A stretch of DNA of 53,143 bases from Candidatus Zixiibacteriota bacterium (GTDB lineage Bacteria > Zixibacteria > MSB-5A5 > GN15 > PGXB01): contig JAGVEJ010000088.1 in the NCBI GenBank assembly GCA_020058225.1, positions 1 to 53,143 on the forward strand, read 5' to 3'. Positions 932 to 45,265 of this stretch are shown piece by piece. Each line of letters starts with the position of its first letter. Position 1 is the stretch's first letter. The notes below the pieces were generated by a model that was not told the DNA's origin, searched no databases, and saw only the letters and a list, made by a program, of their open reading frames with translations. The translations under genes and the position numbers were made by a program.

Positions 932-3109
932 TTATGGGCAATCAGGGGCAGAACCTCCCTTATAAAGGAAATTAACCAGGTAAGAGACATCACTAATATT
1001 AACATTTCCAGAATTGTTGACATCGGCAGAAATCATGGGAACCGGAGCCGGTCCGCCCTTATAAAGGAAATTTATTGTAAATGTAACATCCTGAATATTG
1101 ACAAAAGAATTTCCGCTGGCATCGCCGCAAATAAAGGCGCTCCCGGTTCCCGCAAACACCTCATCAAGTGGGGAAAACTGGCTCCACTGACCTTGGGCGT
1201 CCCGGGCGCGAACTTTATAATAATAATATCCTTCTGCTCGATTGGTGAAATGGTAGAGTGTGTCGGTCAAACTGGATGATACAATCGTCTCAATCCCATA
1301 GGTCTCGATTGGATATATATCATCAAAATAGAAGCCTTCTTCGGTCAAATAAGAATCAGTCGAATACGTGGCTCTAATAAATACATCCATACCTACATAG
1401 CTGGCAAGGCTGAATTTTCCCTCAACCCAGATTCCCCCCGATGAACCGGTAATACCATTGCCGCGGTTGGCTCCGTTAGGATCATAATTGGTGGTAATAT
1501 TTCCCTCAAGCGGAGTAAATATGGTTCCATCAGTCGATGCTTCTATATAGGCATAGTCATATTCGGTTTCAATATCATAGAATGTCCATAATTTAAGGGT
1601 ATCATTGGCATTGACTCTTATTGGATTTTTAGTCTGCATATAAATCGTCGTGCCGTTATTGGCGCCGGAGAAGAAACTCGTTGTCGGGGTATGCGACCGC
1701 CCCGTCGTCAGTATAAATCCGGTATTGATCCAATTATTCCAATTGCTGGCGGAATCATCGCGGCGGGATTTATTCTGATATTCAATCAGTTCATATTGAA
1801 AGGCAGGATTTAATGTATCATTATGGGACCAAGTAACATCGTAATCAAGCCTGTCCACGTTATCAGGCGTTGTCAGAGCAGGTTTTGCAGGCGGCCGGAG
1901 CTGATAAATATATCCAACCACTCGAGCTACAAAAAGGCATGGCTGAAGATTCTCTTGCACTAGCTCTGTCTTGCGATGTATAGTTGGCCAGAAACCATCA
2001 TCATAAGTGCCGACTTCAATTGTAATGGCAAAATTCTTGTTCTTGGTCGTCTGCTCCCCATATCCCCAATCATCGCTATCACCATTAACCAGATACAACC
2101 CCCAGCCCGGACCGGGAGAGTAACCATTAAGAGCATGGATTGTATCACCCAGCGGAACAAAAATATCATTATCGGGAGTATAAATTCTATCATATCCCCA
2201 TGGATACAGAATCAGATTTGAATATGAGTGAAAATATAATGTTATGACAAAATTATGCGCAGAAATAAAATCCCGCATATTCTGCGTTTCGGGTTCCGAA
2301 AATGGCCCTGTCCCGCGGTAAGTTGCGGCATCCGTATTGGGAGAGGAACCGATATCATCATACCCCCACATGTACCCATAGTTCCGATTCAAATCAATGC
2401 CATAAGTTCCATCGCCATTATTGCGACGGTTTTTCCGCCACATTCCACCACCGGTAGGGGCTATTACCTGATTATAATAGTAACCATCCGGATTCACAGT
2501 AACCACAAACCATATTTCTCGATTATCAACCAAGTCAGTTACGGTCGGAATTGTGCCGTAATTATTGGTGATATAATCCATAAAATAAAATAGCACTTCT
2601 GGAGTAATCACTTCCCGGGCATGAATGGCGGCAGTAAACAATACTTCCGGCTCATCTTCATCAACGCCGGGATTATCGGATATTTTAACCGCCCACGTCG
2701 AGCGCCCTTCAATGGTCTGGCCGATGCTGATCTTGGTCGATACAATATTCGGATGACCAGCAATTATACCGTCAAGATATGCATTAATTTCATCCAGTGT
2801 TTTATACCCCCCCATATCCTTTGTTCGATCAAGACGGGATTGATAGAATTCGGTTAGATCGGGGATATCAATTTCAACTCTGAAGCCCAAGGCAGACAAT
2901 CGGTTCAGTTCATTTTGGTTAGTTACTATTTCGATATAATCGGCCCCATGATAGACCTCATCCAACTGCATCTTCTTGAATTCCTGCCATTGTGCTTTGG
3001 AATCCAAATAGACTTTGGCCTTGATATATGGGGTTTCAGCGGCAAAGATTAGTGAGGTTGTGAGGGTGAGGATAAAAATAAACAACAAAACAACTTTAAT
3101 GAAGCGCAT
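932..3109 (-). CDS. Secreted M14 zinc carboxypeptidase with C-terminal dockerin-type repeats
   Basis: This 725-residue protein would cleave C-terminal residues from peptides outside the cell. Residues 1-23 are a signal peptide. The M14 catalytic domain spans about 100-400: zinc ligands H163 and E166 in IHARE, H294 in YFHSYS, a substrate-binding NRNYG near 241, and the catalytic Glu E365 in ITIEVGT. Residues about 400-655 look like beta-sandwich/fibronectin-like material, including a MAM-like or discoidin-like segment. Residues 660-725 are two calcium-binding dockerin-type repeats (GDASGNSFVNIQD and ADVNNSGNVNISD), each followed by a hydrophobic helix ending FLYKGG. ATG 3107-3109 has a good AGGAG ribosome site. 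All catalytic residues are present, so the call is firm; what the dockerin binds is unknown. Confidence 0.93.
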   Translation of the reverse strand: MRFIKVVLLFIFILTLTTSLIFAAETPYIKAKVYLDSKAQWQEFKKMQLDEVYHGADYIEIVTNQNELNRLSALGFRVEIDIPDLTEFYQSRLDRTKDMGGYKTLDEINAYLDGIIAGHPNIVSTKISIGQTIEGRSTWAVKISDNPGVDEDEPEVLFTAAIHAREVITPEVLFYFMDYITNNYGTIPTVTDLVDNREIWFVVTVNPDGYYYNQVIAPTGGGMWRKNRRNNGDGTYGIDLNRNYGYMWGYDDIGSSPNTDAATYRGTGPFSEPETQNMRDFISAHNFVITLYFHSYSNLILYPWGYDRIYTPDNDIFVPLGDTIHALNGYSPGPGWGLYLVNGDSDDWGYGEQTTKNKNFAITIEVGTYDDGFWPTIHRKTELVQENLQPCLFVARVVGYIYQLRPPAKPALTTPDNVDRLDYDVTWSHNDTLNPAFQYELIEYQNKSRRDDSASNWNNWINTGFILTTGRSHTPTTSFFSGANNGTTIYMQTKNPIRVNANDTLKLWTFYDIETEYDYAYIEASTDGTIFTPLEGNITTNYDPNGANRGNGITGSSGGIWVEGKFSLASYVGMDVFIRATYSTDSYLTEEGFYFDDIYPIETYGIETIVSSSLTDTLYHFTNRAEGYYYYKVRARDAQGQWSQFSPLDEVFAGTGSAFICGDASGNSFVNIQDVTFTINFLYKGGPAPVPMISADVNNSGNVNISDVSYLVNFLYKGGSAPDCP

Positions 3110-3319
3110 TAAGTACTCCTCTTAAGGTATGTAAGTATCTTCCCCAAATATAAGGGATATTGCAAATTATCCAAAGGAAAAATTGTGTCAATTTAAACAA
3201 GTAAATGAAGAGAATTATGCCGATTCTCATATCCTCTGAGGCGGATTCTGAAATGCCGTTCATAAGACCCGACTTTGCCCGAATGGCTGGAGGCGTCGAT
3301 GGCTCACTACCCAATAAGA

Positions 3320-3343
3320 AAGGCGGACATTTCAGTCCGCCTT
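3320..3343 (-). terminator. Terminator hairpin of the large dockerin protein gene
   Basis: A perfect 9-bp stem AAGGCGGAC / GTCCGCCTT with loop ATTTCA, 33 bases past the stop at 3377 and followed by TTTCTT in the minus direction. It lies inside a segment of about 71 bases that is nearly identical to 869-940. Confidence 0.75.
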
Positions 3344-3376
3344 ATAAATCCGCATATTTTTAATTAATGGCATTCC

Positions 3377-5818
3377 TTATGGGCAAACCGGCTCAGGCCC
3401 ATTCTTAAACAGACAATTAATCATATAAGTAATATCCCGGATATTGACCAAGCTATCATCATTGAGGTCACCCACACTTGCTGAGGGCACCGGCGGCCAA
3501 CCATGCTGGTACAGGAAATTTATAAGGTATGTTATATCAAGCACATTCAGGTTGCCACTGTGGTCAACATCGCCAACTGCTGGGGGTGGGTCGGTAATGA
3601 TTAATTGCACAATGGCGTAAAGGGTCGTATCCGCTTGCGGGCAAGGATGGAATCGGTCGGAAGCGCAAATAGTGAGAGCAAAGGTTTCTCCGATATCTCT
3701 GCAAAGCGGCGCGTATGTCCATTCACCTGTGATCGAGTCAATCTCCCCCGGACTGGAAAGAATTTGATATGTGATTCGGTCGGGAAGCGGATTCTGGTCG
3801 ACAGCATCAAAATCGAAATGAAATCCGCCATAATAGTCGTTAACCAGGTCGCTTGGATATGCCGGGAAAATGGGCGGATAATTATTGGCCAAGTTCACCG
3901 ACAGATAAATCTGTTGGGCGAGGCTTCCCGCCGCCAAGGCAGAGATAAACTCGGGTTTGCTACCAATAGGGACTATTTCGATAATGTCGGAATAACCGGG
4001 AGCAATCGCGGCCAACCCTGAATCATAGTAATAAGATGGCGAAATTAGTATTTTGAGGGAATCGTTATGTGTATCATGGGCTACAGATTGAGAATCCACC
4101 CCGGACAGCGCATGGATTCTATAATCAGAATAGGTCACCAAATCAGGAGCATAGAAACACAGATGCAGGGCGCCGACCGAATCTGCAAAATCACCACTGA
4201 TAATAATAGATGAATCGGTTTCAGCCAGAGTCAATTGCCCGCTAAATGCACCACCGGCTTTTGGCAGAGGCATAAATACCCCTTTAATGATTCCCCAGAG
4301 ATATACATAATCCTCCAAAGTCAAAACGAGACCGTCGCCATTTATGTCGCTGGTGGCGATTTGCAATGGTAGATTGACTTGGAAGGCGTCTAATCCATAA
4401 AGGAAATAATTTACAAAAACGATTGCATCAGCAATTTCATTTCCAACGCCATTAAGGTTTAAATCGCCCCTGTTATCATAAGGGCCGGGCCAAGAAAGTG
4501 TAATCTTTTGCCCATAAAACCCCGACGCCCGGGCCGAAACCAGCCTTGGTCTGTTGCCTGAATAGGAGATTTCGAATAATTCGCCAAAGCCGCTGGGAAT
4601 TGAGTCTCTTATTCCGCCAAGTGTCATATCGTTGTGGACCAATATCCGCAGGGTATCGCCAATCCTGCTGTAATTTAAATCCATTTGCGAGGCATGAGAT
4701 AGCAGAATAACGTCATATGGCGAAGAGTTGGTGGCATAATAACAGAGTTGCAATCCCCCAACCGGTAAGCCAAAATTTCCAGAGACCTTAAGTATCGAAC
4801 CCATCTCATCGAATTTCAGGAGGCCGTATGAATTGTCGGTAATAGTCTGATTGGGCGACATTTCGCCTGAAATTATGCCGCTCAAATATACATAATCTTC
4901 AATCTTGGCGGGCAAGAGATCTCCGTTTATATCTGTAGCATTTATCTGCGAGTCAAGGGAAACATTAAAGGCTGTATTACCCTGTATGAAATAATTGGCA
5001 AAATTAACCGCATCAGCAAGCTCGTATGGAAGCCCATTTAGATTTACATCACCTCTCAACGGGTTTGCCGAATCGCATGTAATATTCATAAAACCATGGT
5101 GATAATCGATAAATCTAACAGGGAGCTGACCTCCAAAAATGGCGGAATCCAGACATGAATTCGGCATTCCCTGATATGAAGGGAGATAGTTGTAAGGATC
5201 AGTTGCAATATAATCATTCCAATCAAAAATGTCCTTAGAGACAGCAATACCGGTGTCGCCAGCGCTTCCGTACTTCATAAAATTGTCCTCGCAATCTACC
5301 CAAAAGAAGCGGACTGGAACTGCATTACAGGTATATGAAATATTATATGTAACGTGAAAATTAAGATAGAATAGGACCGTCCCGTCAGGAATATGCAATT
5401 CAATTGGATGCTGGGAGCCGTTATTCAAGTCCGAAATTCCGGAAACTCGTATAAAATAGCCTGTTCTTGGGGGGTAAAGTGAATCATAAACAGGATATGT
5501 AATTGAGTCTATTCTTGCTTCAAAATGCTCCCACTGAAAAGCGCCACTGCCACCAAAAATTGGCCCGGGTGTGGCGCCGAGGAATTTCATCCCGGAGTTG
5601 TCATGACCGAAAGAAAACTCAAAACTGTGCATTTCTTCCGTCCCAGCCGTTTTGATAACCGGCACGGAAATATCGCTCCCTCGAGCTATACTGCTTAAGT
5701 CGCTGATTTCAATCGTAAATGGCGTTTGAGCAAGTAATTGATTTGCCATTGAAATAATAAATATGATACAAAGAAATATGAATATTGGGATTCTCTTAAA
5801 TTGGTAAGGCGCAAACAT
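3377..5818 (-). CDS. Secreted multi-domain protein with cohesin-like N-terminus and three dockerin-type segments
   Basis: An 813-residue exported protein. Residues 1-31 are a signal peptide (FIFLCIIFIISMANQLLAQ). Residues 35-200 have the pattern of a cohesin-like beta-sandwich (GSDISVPVIKTAG, then FEFSFGHDNSGMKFLGATPG). Dockerin-like calcium loops occur at about 255-318 (RGDVNLNG, TDINGD), 450-512 (RGDLNLNG, SDINGDG) and, as a canonical pair, at 748-813 (GDVDHSGNLNVLD, GDLNDDSLVNIRD). Between them are two further beta-rich modules that resemble each other, and an Ig/cadherin-like stretch near 660-745. No catalytic domain was recognised, so it is probably structural or a binding scaffold. ATG 5816-5818 has a strong GGAGG site. 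It lies 76 bases behind the next dockerin gene and is likely co-transcribed with it. Confidence 0.8.
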   Translation of the reverse strand: MFAPYQFKRIPIFIFLCIIFIISMANQLLAQTPFTIEISDLSSIARGSDISVPVIKTAGTEEMHSFEFSFGHDNSGMKFLGATPGPIFGGSGAFQWEHFEARIDSITYPVYDSLYPPRTGYFIRVSGISDLNNGSQHPIELHIPDGTVLFYLNFHVTYNISYTCNAVPVRFFWVDCEDNFMKYGSAGDTGIAVSKDIFDWNDYIATDPYNYLPSYQGMPNSCLDSAIFGGQLPVRFIDYHHGFMNITCDSANPLRGDVNLNGLPYELADAVNFANYFIQGNTAFNVSLDSQINATDINGDLLPAKIEDYVYLSGIISGEMSPNQTITDNSYGLLKFDEMGSILKVSGNFGLPVGGLQLCYYATNSSPYDVILLSHASQMDLNYSRIGDTLRILVHNDMTLGGIRDSIPSGFGELFEISYSGNRPRLVSARASGFYGQKITLSWPGPYDNRGDLNLNGVGNEIADAIVFVNYFLYGLDAFQVNLPLQIATSDINGDGLVLTLEDYVYLWGIIKGVFMPLPKAGGAFSGQLTLAETDSSIIISGDFADSVGALHLCFYAPDLVTYSDYRIHALSGVDSQSVAHDTHNDSLKILISPSYYYDSGLAAIAPGYSDIIEIVPIGSKPEFISALAAGSLAQQIYLSVNLANNYPPIFPAYPSDLVNDYYGGFHFDFDAVDQNPLPDRITYQILSSPGEIDSITGEWTYAPLCRDIGETFALTICASDRFHPCPQADTTLYAIVQLIITDPPPAVGDVDHSGNLNVLDITYLINFLYQHGWPPVPSASVGDLNDDSLVNIRDITYMINCLFKNGPEPVCP

Positions 5819-5894
5819 TCTGACCTCCGCAGTCTTGACAGTCTATTTAAGACAAGATCGTCAATAGGTTTATAAAAATAGCAAAAAAACCGGC

Positions 5895-6830
5895 CTACTG
5901 ATATTGCGGCGCCGGGCCGTTCTTATAAAGATAATTTATCAGATAGGTTATATCCTGAATATTGACAATTCCATTGCCGTTTGAATCACCAGTTTGATAT
6001 GGAGTAGGGGGTAATCCGCTCTTATAAAGAAAGTTTATTAAGAAAGTAATATCCTGAATATTGACTTTGCCGGTGCCATTGGCATCCCCGCAAGGATGAA
6101 TTACCATGGCGCCATCAATAACTTCAACCAAATTTGTATCAAGATGGGGAACAATTACGGTATCGACGAAAATCGAATCGGCGGGCGGGCCGGAAACTTG
6201 TTGCCAATTTAGGCAGATTGTATCATCGGGCGGGGGCATCCATTGCATACATTGATACCAATTGGTATCGATTACTGTGTCAAGATAAATTCCGATAAGA
6301 TTCCCCATTTCATCGGAGAAATGGAAATTATTCACATCACCCAATACCATGAAAAGAACAACATAGCGATCGGTCGTGGTATCAGGGATATCATAAATAT
6401 TTGCCTTTATTTTTATTAATGGAATGTCCCCTGTCTGAGGAAATCCTATACCGGGCGTATAGGGATCGGCAACCATATTCGCGAGTCCCGTGATTCTGAT
6501 GTCAAACCCTTGACCGCCCACTGAGCGAACGTCTATGAATTCCCAACCGGAAGTCAGCGTTCCGGATGTATCGAAACCTCCGGTGAATTGCATAATGTCC
6601 GGCTGATCTAACATCATCCACAATTGAAAACCGGCGACCGTGTCGGTCAGGTTTTGTAAATAGATCGGGAAAGTTACATCCTGCTGGCCGGGGTACGCAT
6701 AGACTGTATCGACCTGAATTATCAGTATTGGAGAAGCTTCCGCTGGTGGCGGGGTAACGAAATAAATGGCCGCGACGAATAATACGAAGACGAACGCGGC
6801 AGGACTGATGCGTCTGCTGATGAGGGACAT
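5895..6830 (-). CDS. Secreted cohesin-like plus dockerin protein
   Basis: A 311-residue exported protein. Residues 1-32 form a signal peptide (FVFVLFVAAIYFVTPPPAEA). Residues about 33-190 have the spacing of a cohesin-like domain (VYAYPGQQDVTFPIYLQNL, GFQLWMMLDQPDIMQFTGG, and a later GDIPLIKIKA strand). Residues 246-311 are two dockerin-type repeats (GDANGTGKVNIQD and GDSNGNGIVNIQD), each followed by a helix with the YLYKNG ending. A cohesin-like and a dockerin domain in one chain suggests self-assembly or docking to a partner. No enzyme domain is seen. It is the first gene behind the promoter at 6947-6975, with an AGGAG site 5 bases before the ATG. Confidence 0.8.
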   Translation of the reverse strand: MSLISRRISPAAFVFVLFVAAIYFVTPPPAEASPILIIQVDTVYAYPGQQDVTFPIYLQNLTDTVAGFQLWMMLDQPDIMQFTGGFDTSGTLTSGWEFIDVRSVGGQGFDIRITGLANMVADPYTPGIGFPQTGDIPLIKIKANIYDIPDTTTDRYVVLFMVLGDVNNFHFSDEMGNLIGIYLDTVIDTNWYQCMQWMPPPDDTICLNWQQVSGPPADSIFVDTVIVPHLDTNLVEVIDGAMVIHPCGDANGTGKVNIQDITFLINFLYKSGLPPTPYQTGDSNGNGIVNIQDITYLINYLYKNGPAPQYQ

Positions 6831-6946: not shown

Positions 6947-6975
6947 ATTATAACCTTTTACCAAATATTTGTCAA
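6947..6975 (-). promoter_or_regulatory. Consensus sigma70-type promoter for the cohesin/dockerin genes
   Basis: In the minus direction TTGACA (6970-6975) is followed after exactly 17 bases by TATAAT (6947-6952), a full consensus match. The predicted start near 6940 leaves a leader of about 110 bases before ATG 6830, in which no clear riboswitch fold was recognised. Confidence 0.8.
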
Positions 6976-7030
6976 GCTAATTATACTGTTTCCCGGCTGG
7001 GGACATGTTGAGGGAATCTGCATAAAAAAA

Positions 7031-7123
7031 CGGAAGGGGTGGGAATCGAACCCACCGGAGACGGCATTACCGCCTCCCCACGGTTTTGAAGACCGTAAGG
7101 GCCACCAGACCCTATCCGCTTCC
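7031..7123 (-). tRNA. selC: tRNA-Sec (UCA anticodon)
   Basis: A 93-base tRNA with the hallmarks of selenocysteine tRNA. The anticodon loop is CTTCAAA (anticodon TCA, reads UGA) on stem ACGGT/ACCGT. The D arm has a 6-bp stem (AGGGTC / GGCCCT) with a 4-base loop. The variable arm is long: an 8-bp stem GGAGGCGG / CCGTCTCC with one G-T pair. The T arm is GTGGG TTCGATT CCCAC. The acceptor stem begins GGAAG and ends CTTCC followed by discriminator G. Position 6 appears to be a C-C mismatch, and only 7 bases lie between T stem and discriminator, so the acceptor stem is shorter than the 8 bp of E. coli. CCA is not encoded; a T run follows. It implies that the genome encodes selenoproteins, but no selA, selB or selD lies in the window. 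Confidence 0.93.
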
Positions 7124-7129
7124 GGATAG

Positions 7130-8918: not shown

Positions 8919-8959
8919 ATCTATATCCTCCCGAACAATTATGATCACCCTATAGCGCA

Positions 8960-8988
8960 AATATATATCTATGAAATACCCAGCGCAA
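8960..8988 (-). promoter_or_regulatory. Possible promoter of the solenoid gene
   Basis: Minus-strand TTGCGC (8983-8988), 17 bases, TATATT (8960-8965), about 42 bases before the chosen ATG. The -35 box is a weak match. Confidence 0.35.
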
Positions 8989-9012
8989 TTCTCTTTTTTC
9001 TGAAAGCATAAC

Positions 9013-9045
9013 TTTCTGGATTCCGTGTCAAGCATGGAATGACAA
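9013..9045. repeat. Partial copy of the MITE-like repeat
   Basis: CTTTCTGGATTCCGTGTCAA followed by GCATGGAATGACA matches the right half of the element at 674-797 (CTTTCTGGTTCCCGTGTCAA at 765, ending GGGATGACA). It has its own small inverted repeat ATTCC / GGAAT. The rest of the gap 8989-9173 holds only the repeat at 9131-9156. Confidence 0.6.
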
Positions 9046-25420: not shown

Positions 25421-25434
25421 AATTTATCCCAAAC

Positions 25435-29897: not shown

Positions 29898-29898
29898 A

Positions 29899-30774: not shown

Positions 30775-30789
30775 AATCTGGTATTAAAA

Positions 30790-31779: not shown

Positions 31780-31800
31780 ATTGCCTCCGACAAATGGCTA

Positions 31801-32679: not shown

Positions 32680-32693
32680 AATGTGCAAGGCAA

Positions 32694-32721
32694 AAAATAG
32701 CAAAACTTTTTAATTTGTCAA
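32694..32721 (-). promoter_or_regulatory. Promoter of the Bat operon
   Basis: Minus-strand TTGACA (32716-32721), 16 bases, TATTTT (32694-32699). Eleven tightly packed genes follow down to the hairpin at 21057-21072. Confidence 0.65.
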
Positions 32722-35405: not shown

Positions 35406-38400
35406 TTATTTGACAATAGCAATATCGGTAAAGGCGGTTTTAGTCTCGCCGCCAAAATTCGCCTTTAATATACATCTATAAACGCCGGTCGGCAATGATT
35501 CGCCATTCCACTCATTTTCATTGGTTCCGGATTGCCCCGATTTCTCAAATTTGTCCACCTCACTCCCCGATAAATCATAAAAAGTATAAGTTAGACTGGC
35601 ATTGCCTCCCAGATAACATCGAATTGTGGTCTGACCATCAAGCGTGGGATTGGGATAGCAATAAAACTCCTCCGGTGGAAGCTTCTCGGCATATCCTTGA
35701 ATAGAACCGAATTTTTCTGGCGGAATATAAAAAGTCCCCTGCGGATTACTTCCCCCCATTGGCCAATCAGCATATAGTGAGTCATATCCAACATCATAAG
35801 AATAAAACCAGCCATCAACCCCAAGAAACCCAAGTCCACCCCCATTATTTTTCTTATAAACTAACGGCGAACCTACACCTACTCCCCCTGCGTCCAGCGG
35901 GAACCCGTAAAGCAAATCAGGGCCAAAGGCATAGCAATTCCCATTGGACATGAATACAATTATATCCTGATGCTTATCGCCATTAATATCCGCGACCACC
36001 GGAGCCGCAACCGCACGGTCATAAGGAAATTCTCTATCAATTATCAACGGAAAGTCATTTAAGAAGATAAGATTCTTATCAAGAACATATAATTTATTTA
36101 TGGATGGCACAATAATATCGCCATAGCCATCTTCATCAATATCCGAAATAATTATATTGGCCGGTATTGAATCATGCAAATCCTTGTAGCCATAAGCCTC
36201 AAATATTTTCCCGCCCGATTCCAGATAATTGATCTTTATCACCTTTATTTCGCCTGCGGGCGTGGCGACAACAATCTCCGGCATATTATCGCGGTCAATA
36301 TCGCCTGCCGCCGGACCGTAAACATAAAGCCCCTCCAGATCAAACGAGACTGTATCATACAAGGATGATATTAGATATAATCTCGTGTTTATCGTATCGC
36401 CCACAAGAACAACAATGCCGGTCGGCAACTTTATCATTCCCAATAACTCTTCAGCATTAATGGTCGGCGCCGCTTGGGCGCTTGCCCCGATCGAATCAAC
36501 ATTATAAAGCCGGATCGAGTTGCTTTCACTATCAACTATGGCAACCAATAGGCTATCATCAAAAATCAAAGAAAGAATATTGCCCTGTAGCGGCTCCAAA
36601 TAACCAAAGAATAATCTATCAGCCTCTCCCACTTTCTGCGTGTCGCGATTACCAAAAATATAAAACCAATTTCCCACCCCCACTGCTACCCGCATTGAAT
36701 CCTGCCCCATTCCAAAATTCCCCACCACAGGACCGGCCGTAATAGTATCATGCGTGCGGGCAAATAAAGGAACAATATGACCCGATTTTCCGCTCAAAGA
36801 GTAGGCCGTATCATAAAATACCGGCAAATTAGGCGTGAAATCAGAACCATCTTCTTTCATAGCAATAATATTTCTACCCGATACGGCAATAATTTCATTG
36901 GAACCATCGTTATCCAAATCAACCGCAATTGGGGAAAGACCATAAACCGGATATCCTGCCCGTTTTGGAAATCCCACAGAAGCCAAATCATGCTCCAGAT
37001 CAAATGTCATGGTTGTATCCGACGCCGAAATACCCGTGATACGAATATGCGAATTGGCGCCATTATTTCCGATAGACGGCGGATTTGTATTGGGAGTAAA
37101 TGAAGTATTATTCCCTAAATAATACATATCCTGCTGGTCGCCAAAGCCGGACATATAATCTCCCCCAAAATTAACCACACCATCCGCCTCCATAATTTCA
37201 AGAAATCGCCAATCCGGATTTATCTGAAGCATATTTTGCTCAAAATTGGAATATCCATCGCCATTCCAATCCAAGGCGGCCACACGTTCATCAATATGCC
37301 ATATTATAATTCCAGAACCCGGAATCAAAATATCATACTCGCGACTGAATTCTTTTGTGTGAAAATTTACCGGCCCCAAAATCACTGAAGTTGCTGAATC
37401 AGCCAGCAAAGCCGTTTCGGCCCCATCAATTTCCATCTGTCGATTTTCCAAAAGATAATATTCAAATTCAGATATCGGAATTTTAGCCGCCTTTGTCCCC
37501 GTCTTTAGCATTTCCGTCGCCACCAGTTCGATACCTGCGCCCTGTCTATAAATTACAGGTACAATAAACCCAAGAAAACACCGCGACCAAGCATCGGGAT
37601 AAATCGGCATAGTTCCGAATATTCGACCGACATCAAATCCAAAATCTATTCCGGTGCCAAAACCATTATTGTCCATCAAGGAAAAATCGCCTACCTGCGT
37701 GAAAAAATTATTGGTGCTGTACAGGTCAACCAAACCCAATTGATGCCCATATTCATGAGCCATCACTGCATTCAGGGCCGTTCCTCGATTATCCTGACAA
37801 GCCGTTTCAGGCATTATCATGACATCTCTGACAGTATCCTGTCCATTATTAATGGGAATAACCGATGTATCCCCGAGAAATATATTTCCCGTAAATAAAT
37901 CAGAGGTGGTTGGGGGAAAACCAATATCATTCTGCCTATCGGAACCGGCATGAAAAATTATATATGTATCATATTGAGAAAAATCAATCTCCGGCACAGC
38001 CGTATCAATCAATCTGATGGCATCACGGGAAAGCTCTTCAAGGCCAAATACTTCTTCCCAACCCTTGGCGCCATAATATCCCATCGTATGCGGAAAAGTA
38101 TAAACAGAATCATTATCCTCGGGATAGACTTTCCATGTAAGTGCAAGTTTCCCTTCGGATACTATGGAATAATATATATTAAGCGCTTCAAGATGTTTCT
38201 CAAAATACTGCCGGTTATGCGGCGAGGGGTCAATCGTATGCCCAAATTCCTGTTTGTATTCGATAGTATCGCGCATATCGAATTTTCCCCGGCCGGTCGT
38301 GTTGGCATCATCCGGATTTTCATATCTGAAATCAAAGCGCAGGGCAAGAATACGCAGTGTTTTGACAAATCCGGCATCTGATTGAATCTTAGGCATCCCC

Positions 38401-38612
38401 CACGGTTTATCTCTTTCAAGATTCAGGATATTTCGCTTTGAAGCTTTTGAATGAAATCCCCCCTGAGAAACTACCGGATTTTTGGCATCAACCTGCTTTT
38501 TATCAATCGAAAGCGGCTTCAGTATTTTGCCGTCTTCCGCGATGGCATTCATGCCATTTATCAAGAATACCGCGCAGATAATCAGGAATCCTATTCCAAA
38601 TATTGTTTTCAT
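35406..38612 (-). CDS. Secreted M6 metalloprotease with FG-GAP repeats and T9SS C-terminal sorting domain
   Basis: A 1068-residue exported protease; the chosen start is ATG 38610-38612, giving a normal signal peptide (MKTIFGIGFLIICAVFLING). The M6 catalytic domain spans about 80-540: zinc site HEYGHQLGLVD with H286, E287, H290 and D296. FG-GAP/VCBS-like calcium repeats follow (about 545-970: DLDNDGSNEIIAVSG, DIDRDNMPEIVVAT, DIDEDGYGDIIVPS, DINGDKHQDIIVFM). The last about 80 residues are a type A sorting domain (YCYPNPTLDG ... TFYDLSGSEVDKF ... LPTGVYRC), recognised by T9SS and normally cut off by PorU. It lies directly behind the PorU- and PorV-like genes. Confidence 0.92.
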   Translation of the reverse strand: MKTIFGIGFLIICAVFLINGMNAIAEDGKILKPLSIDKKQVDAKNPVVSQGGFHSKASKRNILNLERDKPWGMPKIQSDAGFVKTLRILALRFDFRYENPDDANTTGRGKFDMRDTIEYKQEFGHTIDPSPHNRQYFEKHLEALNIYYSIVSEGKLALTWKVYPEDNDSVYTFPHTMGYYGAKGWEEVFGLEELSRDAIRLIDTAVPEIDFSQYDTYIIFHAGSDRQNDIGFPPTTSDLFTGNIFLGDTSVIPINNGQDTVRDVMIMPETACQDNRGTALNAVMAHEYGHQLGLVDLYSTNNFFTQVGDFSLMDNNGFGTGIDFGFDVGRIFGTMPIYPDAWSRCFLGFIVPVIYRQGAGIELVATEMLKTGTKAAKIPISEFEYYLLENRQMEIDGAETALLADSATSVILGPVNFHTKEFSREYDILIPGSGIIIWHIDERVAALDWNGDGYSNFEQNMLQINPDWRFLEIMEADGVVNFGGDYMSGFGDQQDMYYLGNNTSFTPNTNPPSIGNNGANSHIRITGISASDTTMTFDLEHDLASVGFPKRAGYPVYGLSPIAVDLDNDGSNEIIAVSGRNIIAMKEDGSDFTPNLPVFYDTAYSLSGKSGHIVPLFARTHDTITAGPVVGNFGMGQDSMRVAVGVGNWFYIFGNRDTQKVGEADRLFFGYLEPLQGNILSLIFDDSLLVAIVDSESNSIRLYNVDSIGASAQAAPTINAEELLGMIKLPTGIVVLVGDTINTRLYLISSLYDTVSFDLEGLYVYGPAAGDIDRDNMPEIVVATPAGEIKVIKINYLESGGKIFEAYGYKDLHDSIPANIIISDIDEDGYGDIIVPSINKLYVLDKNLIFLNDFPLIIDREFPYDRAVAAPVVADINGDKHQDIIVFMSNGNCYAFGPDLLYGFPLDAGGVGVGSPLVYKKNNGGGLGFLGVDGWFYSYDVGYDSLYADWPMGGSNPQGTFYIPPEKFGSIQGYAEKLPPEEFYCYPNPTLDGQTTIRCYLGGNASLTYTFYDLSGSEVDKFEKSGQSGTNENEWNGESLPTGVYRCILKANFGGETKTAFTDIAIVK

Positions 38613-38635
38613 TTCTATTCGTCCCATCCCTCTAA

Positions 38636-41332
38636 TTACATATCAATGGAAAGTGAGAATCTCATGGTATTGGCCAATGGCACATTTTCGCTTGATGGTA
38701 TATAAGCAAAGTCAAACTGGAATGATTTATATGCAAGACCAAAACCCATCGTCGGCGTCATGACTTCACCCTCCTGATCATAAATATAACCTCCCCTGAA
38801 GGCTATAAACGACCCATACCAGTATTCGGCGCCGCCATTCAAAATAACTTCCTTCATTTCCTGCTTGACATCATCAATTCCAACCAGAGACTTATTGGCT
38901 TCTACTGTAATCAATGCCTTATTATAGGCCGACTCAATCATTTTCCAGGCAACTCCCACGGCAAGGTTTCTGGGAAGCGGATCGGCCTGAGAAACATCGA
39001 TATATGAAATATCCGGACCAATATTTGTGACAGCCATGCCAAGATTTACCCGGCGATGAATCCGGTAAAGCATACCTATATCAAAGGCTAATCCTGTCGA
39101 TGTGCCACTCCCCTGTTCGCGCCCGGTGCCTAATGACGACAAGTGCGAATAAATCACTCTTGCCGAAATCCCGCCGCTTAATGATTGTGATAAAGGGGTT
39201 CCATACGAAAGCGTCACGGCAATATCAAACGGCAGAAATTCGCCAAGCACATTGGCGGCTTCATCAGTGCGGGTAATGTTGCCATAAGAAAGAAAAGTAA
39301 TATTACCGCCGACTGTCCCCCAACCCTCGACCGCGCGAACATAGGAGAAGAAATCATAGTACATATCATTGGCAAATTCCGGCAACCAGTTTACATGCAT
39401 CATAGAGATTTCGCTTTTGGCGGCCGCGCTGATGAAAATCCGGCCCTTGGTCACAAACCATTTATCGCCATCCCGCTCCTGAATGCTAATACTGTTTCTT
39501 TTCCCCAAATTTTGTTCATTAACACGGGACCAATTGTCGCCATAAATGATTATCCCGGCCTCTGTAGCAAAAAAAGTCTTGTTTTCTATCGGCTGAATCT
39601 TATTGACTTTAGCGCCTGCGGGATTTGCCAAAACCAGCGCCGACTGACCCGCCATAAGCCAGTCTGAATCAAGTCCATTTACCTCCATTATATTTCGGGC
39701 CAATCTGCCGGCTCGGGCGGAATCCCCATCTACCTTCTCCAGCGCATAATCAAAGATCGTTATATCATTTTCCGGAATTATGACCTTATACCCATAGCGC
39801 ATCCACTTGCGACCGTCATATTTCAGCAACCCATATTCTGTTCCTACCCATAGGGCGCCCTTGCTGTCCAAATCCAGATCGGTCAATTCAAAGCCAAAAC
39901 CGGCCGTATAGGGAACCTTGGTTAGGGGACTATAGACGACCTTCTCTTTTGGTGCAACGGCTGAATCTTGAAGCGGGACTCCCCTGCTTCTGACTTGCGC
40001 ATCAAAATAAGCCGTATATATTCCCATAGTATCAATATTGTTTAACAATTCCTGCGTCTGCTCCCGAAACATATTCGCCGCGGGATTTAATTCATTGAAC
40101 TTTTTCAAGAATTTTTCCCTTTCAGACGCGGTATTATAGATTTTCATATCCTCATAAATTGAAGAATCCGTATGCTCAAGGATATTATTAAATTCATAGT
40201 AATTCTTCCACGATGTCCCGTCAAAATGATATAAATCATCATTGACAAGAACCCAAATATTATCTTTCTCTTTGATGGCTATGCCTTTTATTTCTCCGGA
40301 CTGAAGTCCGTCCGACTCACCCCAATGTTTAATAGCGCCGGCATCATAAACAAGCAATCCTGAATCTGTACCAATATAGGCTCTATCATCGAATAGTTTG
40401 ACAAGCAATATTCTGCTGACAGGCGTCTTATCATCGGGCAATAATCTCTGCCAGTTGCGATTATTATAACGATACAATCCTGAATCGGTCGCCAGCCAAA
40501 TGAAGTCGTTATCGGCGGTGAGATCATTAAGATTCCCGCTGAAACTGACATTAAAGGGAATGATAATCTCTTCGGGCAGAAATCTTCTTTTGGCTTTTTC
40601 CAACGCCACCAGAATTTTGTCCGCTTCGCTTTGATCAAGAGTGGAGTCTTTAAATCCATCATAAAATAATTCATCGGCCTGAGTTATCATATTCCAGTCA
40701 ATCAAACACTGATTATAGCTGTCATTGAGAATATTGAAACTATTCTCAAATTCCTCCCGGCTGGAATATGATTCGGGCAAAGCGCTCTGCATCTTATTTC
40801 TCAGAGAATCAATCCTGTCTCGAGAAAAATAATTATTTATTTTGCCGATTTTTTCCATCAATTCGGGAATTCGCTGTTCGGCAGCCTCACCCGCCAATCC
40901 GGTATATTGGCGCAAAATCGACTCAGAAGATTGCTGAGGATCGGTTTCAATTATTTCTCCCTGTCGCCAATCACCCTTGCTGTACTTTACCAAACCCAGC
41001 TCAGTTATTGCCCAGATATCAAACCGCTTGTAATCAATATCAGAACCTTCATTCTTGAAAAGAGCAACCCTTTTAATAGAATTATATTGCTCGGGGATTT
41101 TGATATCAAACCATTTTCCTGAAAGAGGATAAGTGCCCAATCCGGCTGGATTCCAATGCGTGGAGGTAGCATCATCCGCCACCGCCACAAAAGCCTCACC
41201 CATACCAGCCGCTCTGGCGCCTGCGGCTATTCTTAAAAAAAGCACCGCCGCACTGGAAACATTGGCATGTGTATTAACACTTCCGCCCAAAACAAGCGCT
41301 ATAACTATCAAAAGGGCTAATCGTCTTTTCAT
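38636..41332 (-). CDS. porV: PorV-like outer-membrane protein with an inserted seven-bladed propeller
   Basis: An 898-residue protein, more than twice the usual PorV length. Residues 1-24 are a signal peptide. Residues 27-66 are the PorV/UPF0164 start (ARAAGMGEAFVAVADDATST, HWNPAGLG). The continuation of the barrel resumes only near residue 644 (MMHVNWLPEFANDMYYDFFS) and runs to 898, ending RFSLSIDM. The roughly 575 residues between contain seven blade-like repeats of the type WVGTEYGLLKYDGRKWMRYG: DIWAITELGLVKY, FIWLATDSGLYRY, RAYIGTDSGLLVY, NIWVLVNDDLYHF, ALWVGTEYGLLKY, KTFFATEAGIIIY and DKWFVTKGRIFI. Helical segments interrupt them near 130-270 and 380-470. PorV carries T9SS cargo to PorU; the propeller's role is unknown. 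GGAGG precedes the ATG. Confidence 0.85.
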   Translation of the reverse strand: MKRRLALLIVIALVLGGSVNTHANVSSAAVLFLRIAAGARAAGMGEAFVAVADDATSTHWNPAGLGTYPLSGKWFDIKIPEQYNSIKRVALFKNEGSDIDYKRFDIWAITELGLVKYSKGDWRQGEIIETDPQQSSESILRQYTGLAGEAAEQRIPELMEKIGKINNYFSRDRIDSLRNKMQSALPESYSSREEFENSFNILNDSYNQCLIDWNMITQADELFYDGFKDSTLDQSEADKILVALEKAKRRFLPEEIIIPFNVSFSGNLNDLTADNDFIWLATDSGLYRYNNRNWQRLLPDDKTPVSRILLVKLFDDRAYIGTDSGLLVYDAGAIKHWGESDGLQSGEIKGIAIKEKDNIWVLVNDDLYHFDGTSWKNYYEFNNILEHTDSSIYEDMKIYNTASEREKFLKKFNELNPAANMFREQTQELLNNIDTMGIYTAYFDAQVRSRGVPLQDSAVAPKEKVVYSPLTKVPYTAGFGFELTDLDLDSKGALWVGTEYGLLKYDGRKWMRYGYKVIIPENDITIFDYALEKVDGDSARAGRLARNIMEVNGLDSDWLMAGQSALVLANPAGAKVNKIQPIENKTFFATEAGIIIYGDNWSRVNEQNLGKRNSISIQERDGDKWFVTKGRIFISAAAKSEISMMHVNWLPEFANDMYYDFFSYVRAVEGWGTVGGNITFLSYGNITRTDEAANVLGEFLPFDIAVTLSYGTPLSQSLSGGISARVIYSHLSSLGTGREQGSGTSTGLAFDIGMLYRIHRRVNLGMAVTNIGPDISYIDVSQADPLPRNLAVGVAWKMIESAYNKALITVEANKSLVGIDDVKQEMKEVILNGGAEYWYGSFIAFRGGYIYDQEGEVMTPTMGFGLAYKSFQFDFAYIPSSENVPLANTMRFSLSIDM

Positions 41333-41352: not shown

Positions 41353-44300
41353 TTAATTGACAACTACTATTTTTCCAAAGGACTCAACCGCAGAATCAGA
41401 ATTCTCCGAAATTGCGGTCACTTTATATATATAAACACCCACGGAGACTCGATCCCCATCGGCATCATTGCCGTTCCATGTGAAAAACTCATGGTAATCG
41501 GCAATAATAGAATTTTCGCTATAATCAAATATTTTCTTTCCCGATAATGTAAATATTTCCAAACTTACATTTTTAGCCGGCGATGTTAATAAAAATGAAA
41601 AAGTTGTTTGTTCCTTCATTGGATTGGGATAGTTCATTAAATCAGAAATCAATAAACGATTGGATTCAACAATCTCGGCATTAAATTCCGCTACCGAAGA
41701 ATTATTGGCATTATCCCAAACCTTAACCTTAAAAGCATGAATGCCAGGATCAAGATTATCAATTTGATACTCCAATTTCCCGGAATAACAGCTTCCCAAA
41801 TTATATTCAAATAAATCGGTCAAATTAATCGCATTCTCCACCTGATTATCAATAACCAGCATAATTTCATGCCCTAAACCGCCCATTAGATTAATTCCCG
41901 ATGAATCCGAAATGCTAATCATCAGTTTTTCACCTTGTGATATCTTATCCCCTGATACAAAATTACTTCTATTAGAGAATGTAATGCCAATTTCCGGCCC
42001 AACCATGTCGCTTCCCGATGCAATATAAGCCGAAACCGGAATTGAGTCCGCCAATCCAAAACCGTCAGTAATGTCTGAAATAGCATATCCCGAAATTCTT
42101 GCCGCCTTCCCGCCATACCCAATATCAAGCGGAGCGATAAATGAAAATCCAAAGTTCCCATCGCTAATTGCAATCTTACCGCGATATATCATAGGCCCGC
42201 CCAACGAATAATTAACAGAATCATATAGTTGCGAACCGATATAAACCTTATGATATCTATCAACTTCGGTATCATAAACAAATATATCTAAGACTCCATC
42301 AAAATCCGTATGATTCCCCGTGCCGCTTTCCACCACTTCACCCTCAATATTATGAAGTGCAAGGGCCTTTAGACTATCCGGTGTGGAGGTAAATTTAACT
42401 TCACAATTTGGAATGCCTAATTTAACAAATGGGTCGCCAAAAAAGGCATAGGTCTGATCATTCTTTATTGGACGAGGAGGATTATATGAATATTGCCTCA
42501 TCACTTTGGCCAAATAGACCGACTGACATATAGACAAATCATCGCCGCCAAATAGCAAATCATAACAGAGCCGATTAAACTCGGCATTATCACCGGCATA
42601 TACCGTCCTTGTCGCCGCCACCGTGGCTATTGCGCCTGCATCGGGAAGACGCAAAAGGTCCTCCGCCATTCCCTCTCTTGTCGGGTCATCATAAAATCCA
42701 ATCGAACACGAAGCCGTAAAAACAAGCGTTAGCTTATCTGAATTTTTCAGCTGAGGTAAATCGGAATTGCGGTTAAAAACATGTTCATGCGACCAAGTAT
42801 CTGGATTTCCATGACCGGCATAGTTGACAAGTAAAGAACCTTCATTGAAACTATTTATTATCGCTTCATTCACATCCGGCTTTTCTCTTTTGGAATCAAG
42901 GGGGTAATCCCATAAATATATTTTATTTCTTCTAAATCCCGCAGGGAGATGATATTTCTGCAAATTCTCCGTCTGAGTTGTATGAAATGACTCAAAGCTG
43001 GAACTGCCAAATTCATCATCGGCCACTAAAGTCACCGTAGCCCGCCATGGCGCATAATTAGATGATGCCTCATAAGACCTGGCCTTCTCTATAATATTAT
43101 TCAGTTGCGAAAGGCTTCTCACCGGCCAGCGGGCAACCATCATATCATACCCTCTATCGTCGGGATAGCTGGAATCGCCATCAAGCAAGCCATAATCTCC
43201 AAAAAACACATAATTATCATCAGAAGCAGTAGAGTCATACTCATGCAAATAAGGCGGTATAAAATTCAATGTGGCCGTATTTAGAATATTCTCATAATCA
43301 TAATTGCCATCACCGACAAGAAGTACCGCCGAGGGTGCCGGTGAAGCGCAATTCTCATAGGCGTATTTCAGAAAATCACGAATTGCCGTCGGGTCATATA
43401 CCCCATAAGAGAATTGATTTATTATATCTTCCAAACTCACCAATGTGACATTTATATCGGATTTCGATTCTCGATAAGAAACATACGACTCAAGCGAAGA
43501 CATAAACTGCTGAGGGGCGATGACAAACATATCAGTTTGAACCAAATAACTTTGTAGGCTTGGTAATGTCACCTTTTCAATTTTACCCGCCTGATTTAGC
43601 TTTGATGAGGCACACAAAAATAGATGCGCCCGATTCTTGCCGGTGAAATCATATTTAAATCTCAATCTGCCATCGAGCAATGTTGCCTGATCAATCATTT
43701 TTGGCTCAAACTTATCGGTTAAATCCAAAACAAAGGGCGCATCACTAAAACTATATTCAACCGATATTTCGGCATTATCGGAACTCGAAACAAGCTCCAC
43801 ATCAATAATATCACTGGTGGGAGTCAAGTCACCTTTATAATAGATTTCACAATAATCAAGATATGGCGGAAATGAATAATAATCATTCATAGATAAATCG
43901 AATTTATTCATACCATCTTTCAAACGTCCCGTCCCAAGATAATAAAAAAATGGAATATCACTGACTACCATTGTGGATGCTACATCATTAATCGATAACT
44001 GAGGGGAAAAAGTCCATACTCGTATTTTTACCAATGATGATTCTGAGGCTAATGCCATCGGAAGGTCCATATAATAGGTAAATTGATTTTCATCCGTCCA
44101 ATACCAATCCAAATACCCCGCGACTGTATTTATAGTATCGCGTCTAAGCATCTTATTTTGCCCATTCCTGGCATAAAACCATCCCGTCGTTATGACCGTA
44201 TCAAAGCTACCTCCGGGAAAACCGGCTAACATTCCCATTCTCTTGCCTTTGTCAGGGAAATCCCCCGATACCGCGAGCCAATAATAATTCATGTTGGTGT

Positions 44301-45216
44301 ATGGATTTTCAATGAACTGAGGTTCAGAATCGACAGGAAATTTCCAATGCTCGGACTTCTCTGCTACGAACAGTATATAATCCGCATAATCGAATTTGCC
44401 ATCGCCGCCATCATTTATAATAATGGCAATCTCTCGGAATTCCGGCCTTGGGGCACTGTTTAAAATCGGCAACGGTTCCCCACCGCCATAAAATATATGA
44501 ATTGAATCACTCATTAAATTTGATAATGAAAGCCCTGCCGACGCCAGATTTTGTCCTATGATTTTTATCATGCCCTCGCTGGTAATCGCAATCTTATACC
44601 ATTCTCCAAAAGGCGAAAAAGCGTCTTGATATGACTTGTATGCTGATTGATATTCGCCAATCACCGGCCAATCTTTCATCTGTTCATAATTCAAGATCAA
44701 TGCCTTCAACATTGGCTCGAAAATTTTATCTTCTTTCGGAAATGGCGCCAAATATATCGACTTACCATCGAATTGAAATTGGACTGATACTTCAACTATT
44801 TGATATAAGTACCCATTTTTTATGGGATTAATCATCAATGATACTGTCTTTATTCCCCTAATTATTTTGATATTTCCTATGCTTGCCGTAGGATTGTCGC
44901 CCAGATTTCGCCCGGCGGCCGGAATAGATGTTATTGACATCGGTTTATCTATTCGAATATTTGTAATAAATGGCTCAGCTTCCGGCGGCACGGCAATCAT
45001 AATCGACTTGGAAAAAACATATCCTGTATCGCCAATCGACTCGGATAGGTATTGTTCAGGATTGGAAATGTTCAAACGAAATGAAATGCCGGAATTATCT
45101 GATGTAATTATTTCTACATCATGATACATTGATGGTTTGGCATGAATAACTGATACAAGAATAAAAAGAGTGACGGTGATTCGAATCCACTTGAAAGGCA
45201 AAATAAAACCGGGCAT
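41353..45216 (-). CDS. porU: PorU-like C25 cysteine peptidase (T9SS sortase) with sorting-domain-like C-terminus
   Basis: A 1287-residue gingipain-family (C25) protein. The chosen start, ATG 45214-45216, gives a signal peptide (MPGFILPFKWIRITVTLFIL); a TTG ten codons earlier is possible. The N-terminal part (about 20-560) is beta-rich. The C25 domain covers about 570-940: catalytic His802 in NYAGHGNPDTW and Cys837 in FTASCSIGF, 35 residues apart as in gingipains. Ig-like domains follow, and residues about 1195-1287 resemble a T9SS sorting domain (YPNPMKEQTTFSFLL, LEIFTLSGKKIFDY, VGVYIYKVT). PorU cleaves sorting domains and attaches cargo to the cell surface. Position next to PorV favours PorU over a secreted protease. 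Confidence 0.88.
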   Translation of the reverse strand: MPGFILPFKWIRITVTLFILVSVIHAKPSMYHDVEIITSDNSGISFRLNISNPEQYLSESIGDTGYVFSKSIMIAVPPEAEPFITNIRIDKPMSITSIPAAGRNLGDNPTASIGNIKIIRGIKTVSLMINPIKNGYLYQIVEVSVQFQFDGKSIYLAPFPKEDKIFEPMLKALILNYEQMKDWPVIGEYQSAYKSYQDAFSPFGEWYKIAITSEGMIKIIGQNLASAGLSLSNLMSDSIHIFYGGGEPLPILNSAPRPEFREIAIIINDGGDGKFDYADYILFVAEKSEHWKFPVDSEPQFIENPYTNMNYYWLAVSGDFPDKGKRMGMLAGFPGGSFDTVITTGWFYARNGQNKMLRRDTINTVAGYLDWYWTDENQFTYYMDLPMALASESSLVKIRVWTFSPQLSINDVASTMVVSDIPFFYYLGTGRLKDGMNKFDLSMNDYYSFPPYLDYCEIYYKGDLTPTSDIIDVELVSSSDNAEISVEYSFSDAPFVLDLTDKFEPKMIDQATLLDGRLRFKYDFTGKNRAHLFLCASSKLNQAGKIEKVTLPSLQSYLVQTDMFVIAPQQFMSSLESYVSYRESKSDINVTLVSLEDIINQFSYGVYDPTAIRDFLKYAYENCASPAPSAVLLVGDGNYDYENILNTATLNFIPPYLHEYDSTASDDNYVFFGDYGLLDGDSSYPDDRGYDMMVARWPVRSLSQLNNIIEKARSYEASSNYAPWRATVTLVADDEFGSSSFESFHTTQTENLQKYHLPAGFRRNKIYLWDYPLDSKREKPDVNEAIINSFNEGSLLVNYAGHGNPDTWSHEHVFNRNSDLPQLKNSDKLTLVFTASCSIGFYDDPTREGMAEDLLRLPDAGAIATVAATRTVYAGDNAEFNRLCYDLLFGGDDLSICQSVYLAKVMRQYSYNPPRPIKNDQTYAFFGDPFVKLGIPNCEVKFTSTPDSLKALALHNIEGEVVESGTGNHTDFDGVLDIFVYDTEVDRYHKVYIGSQLYDSVNYSLGGPMIYRGKIAISDGNFGFSFIAPLDIGYGGKAARISGYAISDITDGFGLADSIPVSAYIASGSDMVGPEIGITFSNRSNFVSGDKISQGEKLMISISDSSGINLMGGLGHEIMLVIDNQVENAINLTDLFEYNLGSCYSGKLEYQIDNLDPGIHAFKVKVWDNANNSSVAEFNAEIVESNRLLISDLMNYPNPMKEQTTFSFLLTSPAKNVSLEIFTLSGKKIFDYSENSIIADYHEFFTWNGNDADGDRVSVGVYIYKVTAISENSDSAVESFGKIVVVN

Positions 45217-45265
45217 ATTATTTTTCCCGGCCCAATAACGCTTCAAAAAACAATATAAAACCGTT

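Follow-up and report, generated by a model that had tools for sequence, protein, structure and literature searches.

Clostridial cellulosomes are held at the cell by S-layer-type anchoring. Systems closer to the one considered here have already been proposed elsewhere: the planctosome, proposed from sequence in freshwater Planctomycetes (Nemodlikiaceae) (PMC6461901), and a cellulosome-like complex of Candidatus Stygibacter (Cloacimonadota) with one scaffoldin of 3,755 amino acids bearing tandem cohesins and carbohydrate-binding modules (PMC8542988). Here we analyze a 53,143-nucleotide stretch of DNA (hereafter the window) from a Candidatus Zixiibacteriota bacterium (GenBank assembly GCA_020058225.1, contig JAGVEJ010000088.1), in which three neighboring genes, here called genes 1, 2 and 3, encode exported proteins that end in dockerins (Table 1). 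A preliminary description of the window had taken the trio for a small secreted gene cluster in which cohesin-like domains and dockerins may build a protease-bearing surface complex. We propose that the trio is probably part of a cell-surface display system, cellulosome-like in design, in which cohesins anchored by way of the type IX secretion system (T9SS) display dockerin-tagged proteases and other exported proteins.

Results

The three genes lie on the minus strand, are all intact, and are ordered in the direction of transcription as gene 3 (311 amino acids), gene 2 (813 amino acids) and gene 1 (725 amino acids). All three proteins have a signal-peptide-like start (by a heuristic) and a C-terminal type I dockerin above the PF00404 cut-off (22.9 bits), so the preliminary reading of three adjacent exported dockerin proteins holds. 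The dockerins have the two calcium-loop/helix repeats, D or N at positions 1, 3, 5, 9 and 12, and a score above the Pfam cut-off, as expected of type I. In the terminal dockerin of gene 2, the best PF00404 stretch corresponds to one half, and both halves match a dockerin profile made from the same genome. The M14 protease was also rightly described as intact: the peptidase domain of gene 1 is complete (PF00246, 229.3 bits, profile positions 1-283 of 286), PF20773 scores 69.5 bits, and the translation contains HARE, a match to the HxxE zinc motif of M14.

The N-terminal domain of gene 3 is a cohesin fold according to its predicted structure. For the AlphaFold2 model, made from a 15-sequence alignment (predicted local distance difference test (pLDDT) 83.9, predicted template modeling score (pTM) 0.64), the first 47 Foldseek matches in the PDB are all cohesin or scaffoldin chains. 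In VIA-align comparisons, which for this model and that of gene 2 covered only the beta parts, the best match is cohesin 4uyq_A (Z 16.7, root-mean-square deviation 2.2, 142 of 143 residues, model residues 35-246), and 47 of the 50 listed entries are titled as cohesins, the rest being the scaffoldin entries 3kcp and 4fl4 and the GH84 interaction module 2o4e. An insertion precedes the last strand of the domain. We refer to this cohesin family as COHB and to that of the N-terminal domain of gene 2 as COHA, both labels being coined in this analysis. A second gene-3-type cohesin gene, with a longer insertion, lies at the end of contig C234 and is cut by it (L186:5181-5894); no exact overlap was found between this contig end and contig C121.

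The N-terminal domain of gene 2 belongs to a cohesin sequence family, as judged from its relatives. PF00963 matches 11 of the 13 members of the COHA family (profile A6) at E<1, with a best value of 1.9e-6; the window's own copy gives no match at E<1. When the COHA profile was compared with the PDB, all 26 matches up to E 1.5 were cohesin or scaffoldin entries or NagJ modules, and the best of them, 4dh2 (E 7.7e-4), was the sole match below 0.001. Within the same genome, a COHA relative in contig C150 reaches 25.9 bits against PF00963 (cut-off 24.1), and another in contig C76 scores 26.4 bits together with its neighbors and 21.2 bits, below the cut-off, alone. The cohesin-like N-terminal domains of the preliminary description are thus borne out by predicted fold for gene 3 and by sequence relatives for gene 2, and are cohesin by fold or family rather than an unrelated beta-sandwich.

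The three dockerin-like segments previously noted in gene 2 proved to be the canonical C-terminal pair and two divergent internal pairs. Each internal pair forms a unit with a beta domain; these units are conserved in relatives (alignment of 16 units), and the two in gene 2 are 39% identical. In Pfam, the first internal pair matched only Imm72, at 21.6 bits and below the cut-off of 25. The model of internal domain 2 aligned with cohesins 2xdh and 6kgd_A at Z 11.2, ranks 1-40 being cohesin or scaffoldin entries and the first unrelated row having Z 8.1. Gene 2 most likely has a terminal dockerin preceded by three cohesin-fold domains and two dockerin-like pairs within the chain. The observation here exceeds the original claim, in that the beta domains after the internal dockerin-like segments also look cohesin-like, the second of them in a modeled structure.

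The trio itself carries no T9SS tag, and the likely anchors are found elsewhere in the genome (2.9 Mb, 94% complete), which holds 49 T9SS type A sorting domains (TIGR04183) and SprA (689.9 bits with neighbors, cut-off 200), together with the sortase PorU and a PorV/PorQ family protein in the window. The latter scores 192.8 against the PorV equivalog model, below the cut-off of 250, and the adjacent M6-like protein with a sorting domain scores 297.3 bits against NF052323, below the cut-off of 600. Nine COHA matches were found in the genome, two of them (both in C121) partial. A T9SS C-terminal domain (CTD) ends seven of the nine open reading frames (ORFs), namely those in C150, C86, C189, C100 and C26 and two in C121, and a dockerin takes its place in the other two, gene 2 and the ORF in C76, where 150 residues follow the dockerin. 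With a CTD in seven of nine and with SprA, PorU and the PorV family in the genome, most COHA proteins have the sequence features of the T9SS-anchored class. In architecture alone, anchoring and adaptor scaffoldins are present as COHA-CTD and COHA-dockerin proteins, respectively. SprA and PorU also point to a diderm host.

Dockerin proteins are numerous in this genome. There are 57 PF00404 matches, and the own-genome profile identified 59 dockerin ORFs in stretches fetched around Pfam dockerin or cohesin matches, which is not a whole-genome gene call. The dockerin lies at most 19 residues from the end in 53 of the 59 (in one of these through a contig end). A signal-peptide-like stretch was found heuristically in all 53 dockerin ORFs with an uncut 5' end and in 0 of 12 control ORFs, a flattering contrast because stop-to-stop frames were used for the dockerin ORFs and chosen starts for the controls, which were hand-picked from the window as non-secretory. 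Peptidase domains (Pfam) occur on 14 of the 59: M14 (two), S8 (three, the third known solely from a pooled tally), M28 (three), C25 (two), C10, M4, M12 and M1. Other cargo includes beta-propeller, PKD, TSP3, laminin-G-like and FISUMP proteins; in several further ORFs the dockerin is the sole recognized domain. Scans of 54 dockerin ORFs, run singly or as first member, gave no glycoside hydrolase Pfam domain (E<=0.001); the remaining 5 were covered by the pooled scan alone (best 25 of 59 families). In three FISUMP (Fib_succ_major) proteins (C156, C209 and C180; L107, L109 and L114), the dockerin comes directly after the signal peptide and before the FISUMP domain, a polarity opposite to that of the other clients, and those in C209 and C180 have a single dockerin repeat.

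Only one of the 59 dockerin ORFs has a T9SS CTD (C121, 823 amino acids), and its dockerin-like match is internal and degenerate. We also considered type II secretion as the export route and set it aside, though it is not proven absent: the three secretins found all match PilQ best and none scores above the GspD cut-off. One of the three falls just under the PilQ cut-off (279.5 vs 284.35). One secretin lies near a clear PilM and one near a weak PilM match; for the third, a single neighbor was scanned and gave no match.

Positions 1, 3, 5, 9 and 12 of dockerins have been described as calcium positions and positions 10, 11, 17, 18 and 22 as specificity positions (PMC5748583). Among 53 dockerins of this genome, pairwise identity is 0.80 at the calcium positions, 0.72 at the specificity positions and 0.35 in the variable loop. 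The majority motif is NIQDIT with INYLYKGG here, NILDVS in genome G007, NILDVT in G010 and DISDLVYLVDYMF in G033. Identity to this genome at the specificity positions is 0.21 for G033, a strong difference, and 0.64 for G007 and 0.66 for G010, a mild one that lies mainly at position 11. These samples comprise the 17 top-scoring dockerins each of G007 and G010, whose conservation is therefore biased upwards, 33 matches from 30 loci of G033, and 4 of 6 loci of G055, where short matches were dropped.

At the nucleotide level, codon identity at conserved residues is 0.512; the expectation, from codon usage in ten genes of the window, is 0.534. A neighbor with more than 95% DNA identity exists for only 3 of 50 repeats. 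Gene conversion or recent duplication was rejected on these two grounds as the source of the tag similarity. Since codon identity is at the level that codon usage predicts, the tag is old and kept by selection at the protein level; the amino-acid identity of the 50 repeats (0.62) is biased upwards because the pattern used to select them holds some residues constant. Synonymous saturation and genome-specific majority motifs together point to selection by shared partners. A tag that is carried by unrelated proteins and has shifted between lineages is as expected if the tags of one genome fit shared receptors.

Relatives of gene 3 were sought in other genomes with a profile made from a 7-row subset of an 18-row alignment. 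The 17 named loci come, by the submitters' titles, from Candidatus Zixiibacteriota or candidate division GN15 (11), 'bacterium' (4), Calditrichota (1) and Ignavibacterium sp. (1), the last being the closest relative (49% identity). A COHA protein lies 0.13-0.7 kb after the gene-3-type protein in 6 of the 17 (L129, L131, L132, L133, L135 and L136), and in all of these except L131 two COHA-CTD ORFs follow it. In L125 a dockerin ORF intervenes, and several of the remaining loci either stop shortly after the gene or continue with a dockerin ORF. In the 29 best loci of COHA relatives (L189-L217), a CTD is present on all 28 COHA ORFs with an uncut 3' end, two more being cut. One of these loci, L204 (G040:C168:18515-19153), has a COHA match with one in-frame TAG inside, and the following frame ends in a T9SS tag. 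One 329-amino-acid frame with a cut 5' end (L137:3-989) combines a dockerin (residues 50-112) with a C-terminal T9SS tag and is a possible candidate for a surface-anchored dockerin.

Across 60 genomes, including that of the window, dockerins were found in all 60, COHA in 56 and PF00963 in 57. The trio was thus placed at the wrong scale when it was described as a small gene cluster: it belongs to a genome-wide and order-wide system, with likely anchors encoded elsewhere.

Table 1. Coordinates of the features discussed, counted from the first nucleotide of the window.
Feature	Coordinates	Strand	Evidence
Gene 1, exported zinc carboxypeptidase (M14) that also has an InhA-like MAM domain and ends in a dockerin	932..3109	-	
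Gene 1 C-terminal dockerin	965..1126	-	PF00404 26.9 and 31.6 bits in two scans
Terminator-like stem between gene 2 and gene 1	3320..3343	-	Consensus match only
Gene 2, putative adaptor scaffoldin of 813 amino acids: cohesin, two units of dockerin-like pair and cohesin fold, spacer, dockerin	3377..5818	-	
Gene 2 C-terminal dockerin	3392..3580	-	Own-genome dockerin profile E 2e-23; PF00404 28.4 bits
Gene 2 internal cohesin-fold domain 2	3872..4252	-	AlphaFold2 pLDDT 81.6, pTM 0.80
Gene 2 internal dockerin-like pair 2	4280..4465	-	Alignment A5, three helices in model; approximate boundaries
Gene 2 internal cohesin-fold domain 1	4481..4843	-	Homology to modeled copy 2; approximate boundaries
Gene 2 internal dockerin-like pair 1	4865..5059	-	Alignment A5; approximate boundaries
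Gene 2 N-terminal cohesin, family COHA	5045..5719	-	274.7 bits to profile A6, itself a row of A6
Gene 3, putative exported adaptor with one cohesin-fold domain and C-terminal dockerin	5895..6830	-	ORF, fold, dockerin
Gene 3 C-terminal type I dockerin	5928..6089	-	PF00404 33.7 and 37.8 bits in two scans
Gene 3 cohesin-fold domain, residues 33-247, family COHB	6090..6734	-	VIA-align vs 4uyq_A
Promoter-like site TTGACA-17-TATAAT, 12/12, upstream of gene 3	6947..6975	-	Consensus match only
M6-like protein next to porU/porV, bearing a T9SS type A sorting domain	35406..38627	-	TIGR04183 24.5 bits, cut-off 23
PorV/PorQ family protein	38636..41332	-	NF033709 258.3 bits, cut-off 90
Type IX secretion sortase PorU	41353..45246	-	NF033707 664.6 bits, cut-off 420
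Fourth dockerin protein (repeat protein), 5' part, cut by contig end	52062..53143	+	Continues on contig C73

With a fully matching promoter-like site 5' of gene 3 and a terminator-like stem after gene 2, genes 3 and 2 may form one transcription unit. Such sigma-70-type promoter and terminator matches rest on consensus and are barely commoner in the region than in shuffled sequence (26 promoter-like sites vs 20.2 expected; 11 terminator-like stems vs 7.2 expected). A fourth dockerin protein runs off the end of the window; contig C73, which overlaps this end by 95 identical bases, bears its C-terminal dockerin. Other features on the minus strand are a tRNA-SeC gene (anticodon tca; 7030-7124) just upstream of gene 3, a 579-amino-acid protein (7296-9035) that contains repeated segments, is hydrophobic in its C-terminal part and gave no family at E<=1 in a Pfam scan, and a row of VWA, MoxR-like, TPR and related ORFs (21141-32703) that seems to resemble an aerotolerance (Bat) operon.

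Discussion

In the display system that we propose, CTD-bearing cohesin proteins would leave the cell through the type IX system and become attached to its outer surface as anchoring scaffoldins. More than 50 exported proteins, including the M14 carboxypeptidase of gene 1, would bind these anchored cohesins with their dockerins in a calcium-dependent manner. As adaptors, the products of genes 2 and 3 would each plug their dockerin into an anchored cohesin and take up further dockerin proteins, gene 3 with its one cohesin and gene 2 with its three cohesin-fold domains, so that the complex would branch. Its function would be extracellular protein digestion. We infer this function, as well as the binding itself, the choice of partners between cohesins and dockerins, the surface location and the export route of the dockerin proteins. 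The protease-bearing complex without cellulases that the preliminary description had suggested is well supported as an inference from the real cohesins, the peptidase domains on 14 of the 59 dockerin ORFs and the lack of any glycoside hydrolase match in the 54 scanned. As no plant-polysaccharide enzyme was found in these 54 of 59, the system is not a cellulosome by content.

A number of observations weigh against this proposal, and some of them would suit an explanation that we consider rather unlikely, in which the dockerin has no cohesin partner and is a generic module, folded around calcium, that caps or stabilizes the C-terminus, and the cohesin folds are structural or adhesive. Three genomes of one genus (G041, G044 and G055) have 27, 22 and 42 dockerins, no COHA and 1, 0 and 0 Pfam cohesins, respectively, and the incomplete genome G009 has 7 dockerins with neither COHA nor a Pfam cohesin. 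Over the 60 genomes, the correlation of dockerin counts is weak both with COHA (rho 0.25, p 0.053) and with PF00963 (rho 0.26, p 0.047), counts near 88 per genome meaning at least that many. The binding face of COHB is also not specially conserved: if strands 3, 5, 6 and 8 are the canonical dockerin-binding face of a cohesin, as we assume, their mean entropies (1.68, 1.94, 1.62 and 2.15 vs 1.70 overall) reveal no conserved face, which is not decisive because COHB spans lineages with different tags. A mere cap, however, would not lead us to expect specificity positions that are nearly as conserved as the calcium ligands in this genome and different in G033, with synonymous sites saturated, nor cohesin and dockerin genes as neighbors in several relatives. 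It is also at odds with the poor conservation of these positions in G055, where no COHA was found (identity 0.31, 4 sequences only), but this contrast is small because identity within G033, with its 18 COHA matches, is also low at 0.39, a value that itself speaks against a tightly shared tag.

Further points against the display system concern the proteins themselves. Position 11 is Q in just 56% of the repeats here. PF00963 matches none of the 18 COHB family members, and the profile of the gene 3 domain has no cohesin among its matches to PDB sequences; a profile search against cohesin families gave matches for the gene 2 family and none for gene 3, whose cohesin sequence appears too divergent for profiles and was recognized by fold search only. 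In the Foldseek list for internal domain 2 of gene 2, a CBM2 domain stands at rank 10 among the cohesins. Where counted, there are few cohesin-fold domains per chain, unlike in classical scaffoldins. The protein at L131:9135-14102 (1656 amino acids), the most scaffoldin-like member seen by its domain content, carries three COHA cohesins and internal dockerin-like/beta units but ends in a dockerin instead of a CTD, and a 722-amino-acid frame of G010 with COHA and dockerin matches is likewise not of the CTD type. Finally, the dockerin proteins lack a T9SS tag (with one weak exception), and no GspD above the cut-off was found that could offer them another export route.

Another explanation, which seems improbable to us, is that the main role of the dockerin lies in export or sorting, as a signal that acts either through periplasmic co-export with CTD-cohesin carriers via the type IX translocon or through being read by an outer-membrane machine. 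It would fit the C-terminal position of 53 of 59 dockerins, which is like that of the CTD, the absence of CTDs from the dockerin ORFs of the fetched stretches apart from one internal degenerate match, the lack of a GspD above the cut-off and the fact that own-genome COHA proteins have either a CTD or a dockerin. On the other hand, the PilQ-like secretins are possible routes, the L137 frame has both a dockerin and a CTD, and the dockerin is N-terminal in the three FISUMP ORFs. Piggy-back export through a T9SS is also not known to occur, which we count against an export signal. A version that we hold to be distinctly unlikely makes the dockerin a second, non-covalent T9SS address label, with cargo including gingipain-type proteases leaving via the SprA translocon on CTD-cohesin carriers and staying displayed. 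If true, this would mean that folded proteins are exported piggy-back by the type IX system with lineage-keyed tags, and that one sorting system handles about as many extra passengers as CTD proteins (49 CTD and 57 dockerin matches). It is very improbable, in our judgment, that genes 2 and 3 have no partners but each other and form a self-assembling fiber or S-layer-like lattice, the cohesin of each unit binding the dockerin of the following one, to which the protease is an unrelated neighbor. Both genes do have a cohesin and a dockerin, the L131 protein unites three COHA cohesins with a dockerin in a single chain, gene 3 has a promoter-like site upstream, and a terminator-like stem parts gene 2 from gene 1. 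The dockerins of genes 2 and 3 share their consensus with those of the proteases, however, so that a cohesin binding one should bind the others.

If the display system is real, cohesin-dockerin assembly would be a major arrangement of exported proteases and repeat proteins in an uncultured order, tied to type IX secretion and not to cellulose. It would also yield cohesin families that escape sequence models, dockerin-cohesin pairs of different lineages that may be orthogonal to one another, and a testable, concrete question, namely by what route proteins with only a dockerin pass the outer membrane. We found no open-licence literature linking dockerins or type IX secretion to Zixibacteria, under that one spelling of the name.

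Our findings can be set beside four known cases. Most COHA cohesin proteins resemble substrates with the T9SS type A sorting domain (TIGR04183), SprA, PorU and the PorV family being present, whereas the dockerin proteins are without this tag, apart from one weak exception. Unlike clostridial cellulosomes, the system has no cellulases and no cellulose-binding scaffoldin that we could see, and it combines T9SS-type anchoring with a diderm host; it shares with those of C. thermocellum and mesophilic clostridia the type I dockerin pattern, the cohesin fold and the logic of adaptor and anchoring scaffoldins (PMC5748583). In Ca. Stygibacter, C-terminal dockerins likewise occur on S8 and C25 peptidases, and the cohesin protein is said to bear a conserved C-terminal domain for surface attachment; in contrast, dockerin glycoside hydrolases (GH18 and GH57) are described there and none was found in 54 dockerin ORFs here, and its single scaffoldin compares with several CTD-cohesins and cohesin-dockerin adaptors in our genome (PMC8542988). 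The planctosome is alike in its peptidase cargo (including M14 and M12B), in an adaptor with both dockerin and cohesin, in showing no sign there of a cellulose role and in being proposed from sequence (PMC6461901). Its anchor, however, is a lamin-tail-domain protein, compared with T9SS C-terminal tags here, where no lamin-tail or P-domains were among the Pfam matches listed and no search was aimed at them; our client set is also larger and spread over an order of apparently another phylum (PMC6461901). What our analysis adds to these systems is the host group, the order-wide breadth, the combination of T9SS-tagged cohesins with cohesin-dockerin adaptors in a recurring gene neighborhood, cohesin families at or beyond the edge of sequence models, and genome-specific tag motifs.

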